This document shows, piece after piece, positions 32,522 through 48,892 of a stretch of 61,507 nucleotides of DNA. Below the pieces are notes generated by a model. It had not been told where the DNA came from and did no database searches. It worked only from the letters and a program-made list of their open reading frames with translations. Made by a program: the position numbers and the translations under genes. The first letter of the stretch is position 1; the number at the start of each line of letters is the position of its first letter. Location of the stretch: the NCBI GenBank assembly GCA_946616835.1, contig CAMOJK010000001.1, forward strand, positions 72,894-134,400, read 5' to 3'. Source of the stretch: an uncultured Lachnospiraceae bacterium (GTDB lineage: Bacteria; Bacillota; Clostridia; Lachnospirales; Lachnospiraceae).

Positions 32522-32787
32522 GTGTGAGTTCTGTGTCTGCATATCCCCGCACCGTATAGACTCTTCTGACGGTGTAAAGTGAGCTCTAGCAGTTCTCGGA
32601 AATGCATAAATACACCAGGAACGTCCCGCCACGGATGGCGGGGCGAGTGAACAACGCTACATGGATGTAGCGTGTGAACGGTTCCGGACGTGATACTCAG
32701 ACTTTGGCATTTCCGTAAGAACTGCTTGGCGAACGACCCCACCGGCAGAAGAGCTATCGGTGCGGGTGTGGGTCACTGAACGTACAC
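32522..32787 (+). repeat. Structured palindromic intergenic element B (family I)
   Basis: This occupies most of the 362-base gap between the FkbH-like and ACP genes. The outer arms 32522-32537 and 32772-32787 pair at 12 of 16 positions. Inside are CACCGT/ACGGTG (32550-32555, 32569-32574) with the same 13-base loop as element A except one base; a stem 32588-32605 with 32707-32726 (two-base bulge); CCCGCC/GGCGGG (32625, 32637); CGCTACAT/ATGTAGCG (32655, 32665); and GACCC/GGGTC with CACCG/CGGTG (32735-32744, 32758-32774). The last stem shares bases with the outer arm, so two folds compete. No coding potential on the + strand is supported here. Confidence 0.75.
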
Positions 32788-41524: not shown

Positions 41525-42376
41525 ATGCTTTGGGTATTAATGACTACATACAATAGAAGAGAGCAGACTGTGGAATGTTTCAAGTCTCTGTTAGGAGCTT
41601 ACAGAGGATCCATGGTTATAGTCGATGTGGATGCCGGAAGCATTGATGGGACCGGTATATATTTAAGAAAGTGCATGGAGCATGCAAAACAAAGCAGGCG
41701 CTACGGCAGCAGGGATGTAAGCCTGAAAATTCTGCATTGCAAAAAAAATGTTTATTGGAATCAGGGAATGCGCTATGCTCTGTCCTACGCCGCAAAGCAC
41801 GCAAAGGCCGGTGACGATATACTGCTGGTAAATGATGATGTAGTATTTTATGAGGATTCCGTTGATACGCTGATGAAGAGGAGAAAGCGTTACAGGGCGG
41901 CAGCCGTGGTGGGAGCAGTATGCTCTGAAAGTGGTGAGCAGACCTACGGTGGTGTAAGGACATTGTCAAAGTTTTTTGCAAAGTTTGAAGTGATACCCCC
42001 TGCAAATAAGCCGGTGCTCTGCGATACCTTCAATTGTAACTGTCTTCTGATGTCTGTGGAATGCATGAAGAAGAATGGAAATCTTGACAGAAATTATACC
42101 CACAGCATGGGCGACTATGATTACGGCCTTAGAATGAAGCGGAAAGGTCTCAAAGTCATAAGTAGTGCGGGATATGTAGGTACATGTGAAGCAAATCCCG
42201 TAGAGGAAAGCTGGCAGGATACAGAGCTTCCCATATTTGAACGTGTAATGAAGAAGGAAACTCCCAAGGGCCTCCCTGCAAAAGATTGGTATTATTTCGT
42301 GAAAAAGAACTACGGTGTACTGTCAGCGGTATACCACTCAGTGACACCGTATGTCAGGATTGTTCTGGGAATTTAA
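41525..42376 (+). CDS. GT2 glycosyltransferase, rhamnosyltransferase-like
   Basis: 283 residues. LMTTYNRREQTVECFKSL opens the protein; VNDDVVFYED carries NDD at 103-105 and HSMGDYDYGLRMKRKG the D-x-D-Y-G-L-R motif typical of the WfgS/rhamnosyl-type family 2 enzymes. It has no membrane anchor. The stop codon directly abuts structured element C, whose left arm starts at 42377. The GGGGGAAG ribosome site is well placed. Confidence 0.85.
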   Translation: MLWVLMTTYNRREQTVECFKSLLGAYRGSMVIVDVDAGSIDGTGIYLRKCMEHAKQSRRYGSRDVSLKILHCKKNVYWNQGMRYALSYAAKHAKAGDDILLVNDDVVFYEDSVDTLMKRRKRYRAAAVVGAVCSESGEQTYGGVRTLSKFFAKFEVIPPANKPVLCDTFNCNCLLMSVECMKKNGNLDRNYTHSMGDYDYGLRMKRKGLKVISSAGYVGTCEANPVEESWQDTELPIFERVMKKETPKGLPAKDWYYFVKKNYGVLSAVYHSVTPYVRIVLGI

Positions 42377-42736
42377 AACTTCCCACATATAGTCTGTGGG
42401 AAGCAGAACGACGACTCGCATATGCGCCGGAACCGATGCAACGCCTCGGGAAACTAATCGCTAACAGCCCGTAGTTATCCGTCACATGCGAGCCGGCCAA
42501 AAGCGTACCGTCTCGCAGCCCTGCACCGGATAACAACGGGCTGTTAGCGCTGGATTTCCCCTCGGGAAATTGAACGAAACATAAGTAATTGTACCACTCT
42601 CAGCAGATAATGCTTTCATGTATGGCATTATCTGCTGAGAGTGACAATTACTAGTTTCGTTCAAACTCAGGGCGCATCGTGACTGTTCCGGTGCAATTGC
42701 GAGTGTCGTTCTGGCTAGTTCAGTGAGTGGGAAGTT
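42377..42736 (+). repeat. Structured palindromic intergenic element C (family II, expanded copy)
   Basis: This fills the 392-base gap. Outer arms AACTTCCCAC (42377-42386) and GTGGGAAGTT (42727-42736) are exact inverted repeats; the left arm can also fold locally with GTGGGAAG at 42396-42403. A second stem pairs 42404-42420 with 42698-42713 and 42424-42433 with 42685-42694. Two branches follow: 42459-42481 with 42527-42549 (22 of 23 pairs, flanked by GGGAAA/TTTCCC, with an inner TGCGAG/CTCGCA), and a hairpin from 42570 to 42664 with 39 paired bases and an 11-base loop. Relative to element D, 42442-42696 looks like an insertion bordered by TGCAA on both sides. No open frame is supported. Confidence 0.8.
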
Positions 42737-42768
42737 AAATAATAAATTAGATAATAAGGAGAAATATT

Positions 42769-43704
42769 ATGGGCAAAAGAATATTAGTGACAGGCGGTGC
42801 AGGATTTCTGGGTTCACATTTGTGTAATAGATTGATAGAGGAAGGCAACGATGTTATCTGCCTTGATAATCTCTTTACGGGAACCAAGGACAACATCAGA
42901 CATCTCATCGGCAATCCATATTTTGAATTCATAAGACACGACGTCACCGTGCCCATTGTTATTGAAGTGGATCAGATATACAATCTGGCCTGCCCTGCCA
43001 GCCCGGTTCATTACCAGTATAACCCCATTAAGACCACCAAGACCTCCGTGCTGGGTGCCATGAATATGCTGGGACTAGCAAAGCGGGTTCATGCAAGAAT
43101 TCTTCAGGCGTCCACATCCGAAGTATACGGTGATCCTGAGGTTCATCCCCAGCCCGAAAGCTATAGGGGCTGTGTAAATACCATAGGCATCAGATCCTGC
43201 TACGATGAGGGCAAGCGTGTGGCTGAGACTCTTTTCTTTGATTATCACAGAATGAACAATGTGGATATTAAAGTAATGAGAATCTTTAATACCTATGGTC
43301 CCAACATGCACCCGGCAGACGGCAGGGTGGTTTCAAATTTCATAATGCAGGCCCTCAGGGGGGAAGACATAACTGTGTATGGCGACGGTTCGCAGACCAG
43401 GAGTTTTTGCTATGTGGATGACCTGATCGAAGGCATGGTGAGGCTGATGAATTCAAGGGATGGCTTTACGGGCCCTGTTAACATTGGAAATCCCGGCGAG
43501 TTTACTATCAAGGAGCTGGCTGAGATGATTCTTGAAAAGACAGGCTCGTCTTCTAAAATCGTGTATAAGCCCCTTCCTTCGGATGATCCTATACAACGCA
43601 GACCTGTTATAGAATTGGCAAAGAAAGAGTTAGACTGGGAGCCCACTATCCCTCTTGATAAGGGACTTGATAAGACTATTGAATATTTCAGGCAGTTTGT
43701 GTAA
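42769..43704 (+). CDS. UDP-glucuronate decarboxylase (UDP-xylose synthase)
   Basis: 311 residues, extended [12 protein letters not shown] (about 9-17) binds NAD, Y145 and K149 (SCYDEGKR) are the catalytic pair, and CPASPVHYQ plus [16 protein letters not shown] are diagnostic for the UXS branch. It turns UDP-glucuronate into UDP-xylose, implying xylose (or a derived pentose) in the glycan. The UDP-glucose dehydrogenase needed upstream is not in the window. AAGGAG precedes the ATG, just after element C. Confidence 0.9.
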
Positions 43705-47680: not shown

Positions 47681-48802
47681 ATGAAAAATACGAAGATATA
47701 TGCAGCTTACCTGCCACAATTTCATGAAACAGAAGATAATGACATTTTCTGGGGAAAGGGTTTTACCGACTGGGACGGTGTCAGAAATGCTAAGCCCCAG
47801 TATGAAGGCCATGTGCAGCCCAGGGTTCCTAAGGAAAAGAATTATTATGATCTTTCAGATCCTGAATCGCTGAAAAAACAGGCGGAACTGGCGTTGTTCT
47901 ATGGAATTGATGGGTTTAATATCTATCATTACTGGTTTAAAAAAGGAAAACAGGAACTGCAGCTTCCTGCAGAACTGCTGCTGAACCACCCGGAGATCAG
48001 GATTGCTTATTTTTTCACCTGGGATAACAGTTCATGGAAACGGACATGGAGTAGCATTAAGGGAAATGATTGGGCACCCTTAAGGGATGTTGAAAAAAAG
48101 CAGGGTGATGCTGTTCTCTGTGAGCTGGATTACGGCAGTAAAGAAGATTGGGAAAAACATTTTCAGTACTTGCTTAATTTCTTCAGGGATGAAAGATATT
48201 TAAGGATAAACAACAAACCTGTATTTGCTTTCATGACCTATCAGGACGCGGAAGTGATGAAAAAGATGATTGCATATTGGCGGAAGCGGGCTGAGGAATA
48301 TGGCCTTGAGGGACTCTTTATTCTGACCAATTATGACAGGATGAAAGGGCGGTTCTTAGGGGACCGGTATTTTGTATATCAGCCGTCATACAGTGCATGG
48401 TCCGTACGCTCCAGATGGGAAAACCGTTTTGAAAGGTATCTGAAGCTAAAGCCGCATTTTGATTCGCCGGTGAAATATCTGTATGATTATGATGCGGTCT
48501 GGAAGAAGATAATCAGCTTTTCGGAAAGCCGGCCGGAGATCATACAGGGCGGCTTTGTAAGATATGATGATACTCCCCGCAGGGGGAACAAGGCACTTAT
48601 AATACGCGGTGAAACTGCTGAGAGTTTTTATAATAACTTTAAAAAACTATATGAGAACTGTATGAAGAATGATCAGGAAATCCTGCTGCTTACCGCATGG
48701 AATGAGTGGGGAGAAGGTGCATATCTGGAACCTGATGAGGATACTTCATATGCATACCTTGAAGCAGTAAAGAGAGTTAAGATTAAAACTTCCCACATGT
48801 AG
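47681..48802 (+). CDS. WbsX-like (GH99-like) protein
   Basis: 373 residues. IYAAYLPQFHETEDNDIFWG, GFTDWDGVRNAKPQYEGH and TAWNEWGEGAYLEPD are the hallmarks of the WbsX family (Pfam PF14307, related to glycosidase family 99). Such proteins are common in O-antigen and capsule loci, where they are proposed to be transferases or mannan-trimming enzymes. The last residues (KTSHM) and the stop lie inside element D, so the element forms the 3' end of the gene. The natural C-terminus may have been altered slightly by it. Confidence 0.9.
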   Translation: MKNTKIYAAYLPQFHETEDNDIFWGKGFTDWDGVRNAKPQYEGHVQPRVPKEKNYYDLSDPESLKKQAELALFYGIDGFNIYHYWFKKGKQELQLPAELLLNHPEIRIAYFFTWDNSSWKRTWSSIKGNDWAPLRDVEKKQGDAVLCELDYGSKEDWEKHFQYLLNFFRDERYLRINNKPVFAFMTYQDAEVMKKMIAYWRKRAEEYGLEGLFILTNYDRMKGRFLGDRYFVYQPSYSAWSVRSRWENRFERYLKLKPHFDSPVKYLYDYDAVWKKIISFSESRPEIIQGGFVRYDDTPRRGNKALIIRGETAESFYNNFKKLYENCMKNDQEILLLTAWNEWGEGAYLEPDEDTSYAYLEAVKRVKIKTSHM

Positions 48803-48892
48803 TCTTTGAGAAAAGAACGACGATTCGCATATGCTTGGAACCGATGCAATTGTGAGTGCCGTTCTAACAAACTTGGTGAGTGGGAAGTTTTA
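48784..48892 (+). repeat. Structured palindromic element D (family II, minimal copy)
   Basis: 109 bases bounded by a perfect 13-bp inverted repeat, TAAAACTTCCCAC (48784-48796) and GTGGGAAGTTTTA (48880-48892). It covers the last codons and stop of the WbsX-like gene. An inner stem (AGAACG near 48815 with CGTTCT near 48860) continues through ATTCGCA and TGTGAGT, which pair only with two G-U wobbles; element C has Watson-Crick pairs at the same places. The flanks and inner blocks are shared with element C, which carries about 255 extra bases. No coding capacity apart from the overlapped gene end. Confidence 0.8.

Follow-up and report, generated by a model that had tools for sequence, protein, structure and literature searches.

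Prokaryotic MITEs, which are non-autonomous transposable elements, are characterised in the relevant passages of PMC10969869 as typically shorter than 500 bp, bounded by terminal inverted repeats and direct repeats, yielding folded transcripts, and both originating from and moved by insertion sequences (IS). The pneumococcal BOX and RUP elements, as described in the passages of PMC3049150 devoted to them, are small, intergenic and MITE-like, of modular size, with terminal repeats, strong folding with paired ends and mutual insertion; a BOX element forms a composite RNA with two T-box riboswitches. The TwoAYGGAY motif (RF01731) is listed in the table of Weinberg 2010 as probably RNA and as neither cis-regulatory nor a riboswitch, and its Rfam type is cis-regulatory. 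Those parts of PMC4333381 that concern it present TwoAYGGAY as a motif of unknown function with a poorly conserved external stem and propose, from motif matches, that it is a CsrA-binding sRNA; transposons are unmentioned in those of the literature passages naming the motif that were examined. Open literature that links MITEs to structured RNA, IS4, Lachnospiraceae, Butyrivibrio or riboswitches was surveyed through listings, abstracts and passages, and none of it was recognised as describing the element analysed here.

The window, that is, the whole 61,507-nucleotide stretch of DNA that was analysed, comes from an uncultured Lachnospiraceae bacterium (GCA_946616835.1, contig CAMOJK010000001.1). 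Within it a palindrome fills the space that separates a family-2 glycosyltransferase gene (41525-42376) from a gene for an NAD-dependent sugar epimerase of UXS-like type (42769-43704), both assigned by Pfam and both on the plus strand, as the preliminary description had held in calling the flanking genes codirectional. The left terminal repeat, TAAAACTTCCCAC, starts at 42374, three bases ahead of the span given there, and opens with the three bases (42374-42376) that serve the glycosyltransferase gene as its stop codon. No open reading frame (ORF) of at least 100 aa lies inside the element. Its parts, and two related features of the window, are as follows.

42374-42739, plus strand: the whole element in its long form (arms, core and inserted hairpin), 366 bp end to end.
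42374-42386, plus strand: left terminal inverted repeat TAAAACTTCCCAC, including the stop codon of the upstream gene.
42387-42429, plus strand: left outer arm, whose partner is 42689-42726.
42430-42565, plus strand: conserved structured core, 5' and apical part, with co-varying stems and conserved internal loops.
42566-42670, plus strand: inserted 105-nt hairpin module (the "39-bp hairpin"), in whose place aligned hairpin-less copies have CTAAG or CTAAC.
42671-42688, plus strand: conserved structured core, 3' strand of the closing stem.
42689-42726, plus strand: right outer arm.
42727-42739, minus strand: right terminal inverted repeat, reading GTGGGAAGTTAAA on the plus strand (family form GTGGGAAGTTTTA).
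48784-48892, plus strand: a further copy of this element type, short (109 bp), with both terminal repeats and no core.
32573-32740, plus strand: a TwoAYGGAY RNA motif (RF01731, 100 bits) in a degenerate wrapper of a second element type.

As RNA, positions 42370-42745 fold at -199 kcal/mol, compared with a mean of -104.4 (sd 5.7) in 100 dinucleotide shuffles (z -16.6), none of which folded equally well. Between 42374 and 42741 the sequence departs from its shuffles by z -17.4 as DNA and by z -17.5 as minus-strand RNA, and the earlier claim of a palindrome far beyond chance therefore holds, at about z -17 for RNA, DNA and minus strand alike. The arms and hairpins reported before were likewise recovered, with exact 10-bp outer arms (AACTTCCCAC at 42377-42386 and GTGGGAAGTT at 42727-42736), a further inverted repeat at 42448-42481/42527-42560 (34 nt, 85%), and a long hairpin of which the repeats at 42595-42613/42625-42643 (19 nt, 100%) and 42584-42599/42637-42652 (16 nt, 81%) are parts. 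No intrinsic terminator, i.e., a GC hairpin followed by a T-run, was found in the element on the plus strand, which agrees with the earlier statement that no terminator U-tract follows the palindrome; one short terminator-like site is present on the minus strand (42404-42378).

Shared terminal inverted repeats, 7-bp target duplications and, in a sister species, an IS4-family insertion sequence bounded by the same ends lead us to regard the palindrome, with high confidence, as a MITE that would be moved in trans by an IS4-family transposase recognising CTAAAACTTCCCAC-type ends, with 7-bp target duplications. Its nature as mobile palindromic DNA is well supported by the comparisons of sequence, and of the readings first offered for this gap it is the palindromic mobile element that gains, from the terminal inverted repeats, the 7-bp duplications in sister copies, the dispersed copies, the same-ended IS and the empty gaps in relatives. 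The family's terminal inverted repeats, about 14 bp long (CTAAAACTTCCCAC), were counted 92 times in the element's own genome, against 18 for a reversed-pattern control; the corresponding counts were 142 against 2 in G026, 33 against 1 in G008 and 25 against 4 in G034. Perfect 7-bp target duplications flank 13 of 36 paired-end elements, where 0.53 would be expected with shuffled partners, and perfect duplications at the control lengths of 5, 6, 8 and 9 numbered 0, 1, 1 and 0. These 36 are the elements of both types that have both ends and enough flank, two MarR-gene pairs included; the other 23 are without a perfect 7-mer duplication. The window copy has no clean duplication beside 42374 and 42739, and its right end is decayed.

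The copy search by BLAST that the preliminary description had proposed returned pieces in the element's own genome and in congeners: 83 pieces in the former, by hand count 40 places, many of them at contig ends, and matches in 8 of 60 genomes including its own (7 of the 59 others), every one congeneric. The whole element was unmatched in the plasmid and phage collections. The ORF at 47681-48802 extends into the short copy at 48784-48892, which consequently supplies its last codons and stop. At about 1047-1083 of locus L137 two element ends lie nearly back to back (about 35 bp), resembling a bare end-to-end remnant. A MarR-family regulator gene lies between second-type ends at a spacing of 619 bp in two species (L124 989-1607 and L217 981-1599). 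Its interpretation as cargo between two terminal repeats (PF01047; G000:C64 and G026:C12) was rejected because the same gene stands at the same spacing in both genomes and no perfect target duplication is present.

The IS4-family partner is found in G026, where perfect inverted ends of 17 bp enclose about 1.6 kb with a single ORF of 471 aa that scores 560 bits against the NCBIfam IS4-family model NF049925 (cut-off 250). A transposase 63% identical to it, with like ends, is present in G032, and G008 has the C-terminal part only, at a contig end. At E 1e-30, the transposase was detected in 3 of 35 congeneric genomes and not in the other 32, which include the element's own assembly (85.6% complete, 178 contigs). 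The G026 insertion sequence (G026:C41) sits at a contig edge, and its own target duplication is therefore unreadable. The window element shares its 14-bp ends, beyond which there are only 10-bp chance matches, and, unlike it, encodes no transposase. Because the resemblance is confined to the ends, the body of the window element did not, on this comparison, arise from the insertion sequence by simple deletion. A simple deletion derivative is a 224-bp element of G034 that has the same ends and a relic of the transposase C-terminus (39 aa, 44% identical, E 1e-7).

From a comparison of the orthologous gap in 8 of the 32 genomes that have the gene, the window insertion looks old and its interior appears to have been altered afterwards. 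The gap in G026 (upstream protein 93% identical) holds a copy that measures about 130 bp, lacks the inner modules and is identical in its near flanks, and that in G008 (93%) a 266-bp copy at the same nucleotide in the opposite orientation. The arm letters of the G008 copy are those of the window copy's subtype, which makes an inversion in place possible; a separate insertion is the other possibility. In G034 (89%) the gap is occupied by another MITE-like insert, decayed and about 100 bp long, and in G009 by an unrelated hairpin; in G003, G027 and G002 the gap is short and the element absent. The age of an insertion present in three species may explain why no clean target duplication flanks the window copy. 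At another site, one and the same gap contains a core element in G008, a TwoAYGGAY element in G034, nothing in G026 and something else in G000. In the mechanism that we propose, the window site would be an old insertion between the glycosyltransferase and epimerase genes and, if transcribed through, would place a long double-stranded segment in that mRNA.

The same kind of ends also encloses TwoAYGGAY, which is present in 26 of the 35 congeneric genomes, many times in some of them. Six matches fall within elements whose terminal repeats are those of the window element (G034:C6:84083, L220; G034:C3:186706, L222; G034:C5:39552, L088; G026:C48:53656, L223; G008:C4:91184, L229; G000:C2:40860, L100). 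By motif, TwoAYGGAY is carried by 7 of 13 elements of the second type, the other six being short forms that lack it; five of those seven measure 264 bp, and first-type core elements 264-266 bp. In the window's own genome, two of five TwoAYGGAY matches lie between such ends when up to two mismatches are allowed. At 19 loci the motif is flanked by long duplexes that differ between genomes, an observation made without a shuffled control, and these variable palindromic arms fit the poorly conserved external stem reported in the TwoAYGGAY passages of PMC4333381. The TwoAYGGAY match in the window itself has arms like those of sister elements carrying the motif and no intact terminal repeats.

Both-ended elements vary in their content. 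Among 47 of them, taken from the fetched loci and thus not a complete survey, 28 belong to the window type: 12 are without an intact core motif (109-243 bp; L071 and L079 retain part of it), 11 have the core (264-266 bp in 10, the remaining one having unread bases) and 5 have the core plus the inserted hairpin (349-369 bp). One further core-bearing element was left unclassed. Modules have been gained and lost over a size range from 109 to 369 bp. The hairpin of the window copy is identical at 105/105 positions to that of L031, at another place in G026, where the sequence on either side of it agrees at 179/192 and 60/72 positions; L031 in turn resembles L049 with the hairpin replacing CTAAC. 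The hairpin of L206 occupies the opposite side of the same internal loop and those of L004 and L005 the apical loop, and in all five copies seen it thus lies within core loops, at three positions. Its identity amid less alike surroundings, together with these varied positions, indicates that the hairpin is a module that spread as a unit, by insertion or gene conversion. A search for it as a standalone module by its loop pattern hit 2 of 35 genomes, at four places, each within or at one of these elements; the copies in L005 and L206 were missed by the pattern and seen otherwise. In such copies the extra hairpin in the core loop leaves the overall fold intact.

The core, about 160 nt long, was aligned from 22 of 25 located stretches in eight genomes (three near-duplicates were omitted, and copies with a hairpin insert or a broken core are absent), which gave 180 columns, 49 of them invariant. 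RNAalifold places 44 pairs on this alignment, 25 of them with double changes; 95.9% of the cells pair, and covariation amounts to 0.341, compared with 0.132 after shuffling and at most 0.082 with slid partners. A model built from the alignment matches 10 of the 35 congeneric genomes, the match numbers including weak antisense matches of the palindrome, and among 392 genomes of the order it has weak matches in two from other genera of the same family (G333 and G177, both outside the 22-sequence alignment). Across a species-level genome collection the core pattern occurs in 34 stretches, all from Lachnospiraceae and, where a habitat is named, from the rumen (genomes G005, G008, G013, G021, G026, G029, G033 and G034), and viral contigs gave no match to the pattern. 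The core relatives in G333 are L171, L172, L174 and L176; the apical part is short in L171, the other three have an inserted hairpin of their own, and L171 and L172 are surrounded by repeated "actgtt"-like units.

Forty-five core copies were checked for terminal repeats within 150 bp. In the four closest genomes both repeats accompany 17 of 24 copies, one accompanies 4 and none 3. Such ends are absent from 20 of the 21 copies of other genomes, with one end at the remaining copy, so IS4 does not explain the spread of these copies; where read, they have other palindromic arms. The folded core in the body of the window element is conserved and is present elsewhere in the genus as well, inside other palindromic wrappers. 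No Rfam family reached its gathering score on the element, and the 13 matches at a relaxed threshold, 10 of them to microRNA models, all fell below it; at eight core loci no family lay over a core except for one weak match touching the edge of the L048 core. The TwoAYGGAY model left the window element unmatched and matched one of the eight loci (L037), about 238 bp from the core, and the HEARO / IscB omega RNA model matched neither the element nor the eight loci.

The position between two codirectional genes would suit cis-regulation or attenuation of the UXS-like gene, an explanation that we consider very improbable. According to a crude ORF caller, 31 of 43 core copies (positions being approximate for five, L190, L201, L203, L206 and L210) have a gene on each side, which are codirectional in 15 (10 sense, 5 antisense), convergent in 9 and divergent in 7. 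The core thus lacks the constant orientation to a downstream gene by which a cis-regulatory leader or riboswitch would be recognised, and some relatives have either nothing or another element in this gap. Together with the lack of a plus-strand terminator, the varying orientation also leaves the "polar regulator" suggested at first without support.

The core might be a functional RNA, transcribed from outside or autonomously, with a putative role in mRNA protection, trans action or protein binding and with stems kept by selection on RNA folding; we regard this as quite conceivable, if short of probable. It agrees with the strong covariation and the 49 invariant columns in 22 sequences, with the presence between the same ends of TwoAYGGAY, a probable RNA (table of Weinberg 2010; CsrA-binding sRNA proposed in passages of PMC4333381), and with a hairpin and T-run after the core in L046 and L048. 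The varying orientation of the core to genes argues against it, and three orthologous pairs from G013 and G033 gave a mixed outcome. In L036/L041 the core (168/174) is better conserved than the downstream sequence (46/60 and 204/251; upstream, 226/240), which favours a functional RNA. Conversely, the core of L046/L048 (165/172) is no more alike than its flanks, and that of L034/L043 (130/172) is less alike than the upstream side (214/240); the arms of the latter pair are identical at 41/64 and 31/60 positions with pairing retained. Downstream of the core, L036 and L041 both have a separate near-perfect palindrome, GGGATATAA..GGGGACACA. The cores of L046 (1004-1175) and L048 (1499-1670) lie about 285 bp upstream of a gene for a PD-(D/E)XK transposase-type nuclease, in the same place in two species; a PF12784 domain was found in the L048 gene.

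RNA helices normally favour G-U pairs. In a larger core alignment (the 44 best of 63 rows, 42 of them distinct, with antisense rows and L170 excluded and L169 and L171 counted), 30 G-U cells compare with 42 A-C cells in the distinct rows, one invariant U-G pair being excluded, and the minority pair states of the 22-sequence alignment comprise 12 G-U and 15 A-C. TwoAYGGAY, treated by the same method, gave 10 G-U against 2 A-C in a small control (23 of 30 fetched loci used, 22 distinct, 25 pairs); the alignment for a TPP control (30 of 30 fetched loci) yielded merely 7 pairs and was uninformative. The missing preference for wobble pairs, which counts against a functional RNA, is a hint, not proof, of DNA-level pairing or strand-switch correction; it is only a hint because one control was small and the other failed. 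Of the "structured RNA" of the preliminary description, only the conserved, co-varying fold is supported.

Alternatively, the core may be a DNA structure, a putative cruciform or single-stranded hairpin for movement, replication or protein binding in which Watson-Crick DNA pairs are selected; this is possible but doubtful. Both wobble counts, set against that of TwoAYGGAY, are in line with it, as are a DNA fold that exceeds its shuffles as much as the RNA fold does, the extra hairpins within loops in the five copies seen, and the G008 copy that lies in the orthologous gap in opposite orientation. On the other hand, the control is thin (25 TwoAYGGAY and 7 TPP pairs), decayed copies add G-U and A-C equally and could mask a preference, and IS4-type transposition is not known to need such a folded DNA structure. 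The low G-U count would equally suit a core without present function, in which strand switching during replication copies and corrects palindromes and itself yields Watson-Crick double changes. Module gain and loss between 109 and 369 bp and the transfer of the hairpin, whether as a unit or through gene conversion, also accord with it. We nevertheless think the absence of function unlikely, as it leaves unexplained the invariant internal-loop letters (AAC of GCAACGC, TAA of GCTAA) across differing wrappers in eight genomes.

Returning to the mobile element, the window palindrome is of an ordinary kind, a MITE, in an unusual form; the folded nucleic acid of its core would be a selfish passenger or a helper. 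Tentatively, we propose that IS4-type MITEs in this Lachnospiraceae genus may serve as vehicles for selfish folded nucleic acids, in that at least two unrelated motifs, the core and TwoAYGGAY, lie between the same ends, both within long palindromic arms that differ between species, with further hairpins parasitising the loops of the core, whose job would then belong to the life of the element and not to the control of one gene. If this were true, the core might, for instance, mark single-stranded DNA or bind a protein, be it the transposase or a host regulator like CsrA. The motif of CsrA-binding sRNAs is ANGGA in hairpin loops, and with regard to CsrA binding the invariant GGATT of the core is only a lead. 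Two structured motifs sharing one set of transposon ends are the part most worth following: the mobile-element context offers a testable hypothesis for TwoAYGGAY, to which a second co-varying motif travelling on the same ends is now added. A caution also follows, since covariation by itself need not indicate a regulatory RNA: the present motif lacks the wobble signature and rides on palindromic mobile DNA.

Among known systems, TwoAYGGAY (RF01731) is linked to the window element by those of its copies that, in this genus, ride in sister MITEs of near-equal length that share its terminal repeats; TwoAYGGAY is nevertheless a distinct motif, whose model finds no match in the window element's core. 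Pneumococcal BOX and RUP are likened to the element by description and not by sequence, and they belong with another IS, RUP being linked to IS630-Spn1; covariation, or one core in different wrappers, is unmentioned in the passages of PMC3049150 that describe them. From prokaryotic MITEs as portrayed in the passages of PMC10969869, the window element differs in its conserved co-varying core, in the occurrence of that core in other wrappers and in the hairpins nested within its loops.
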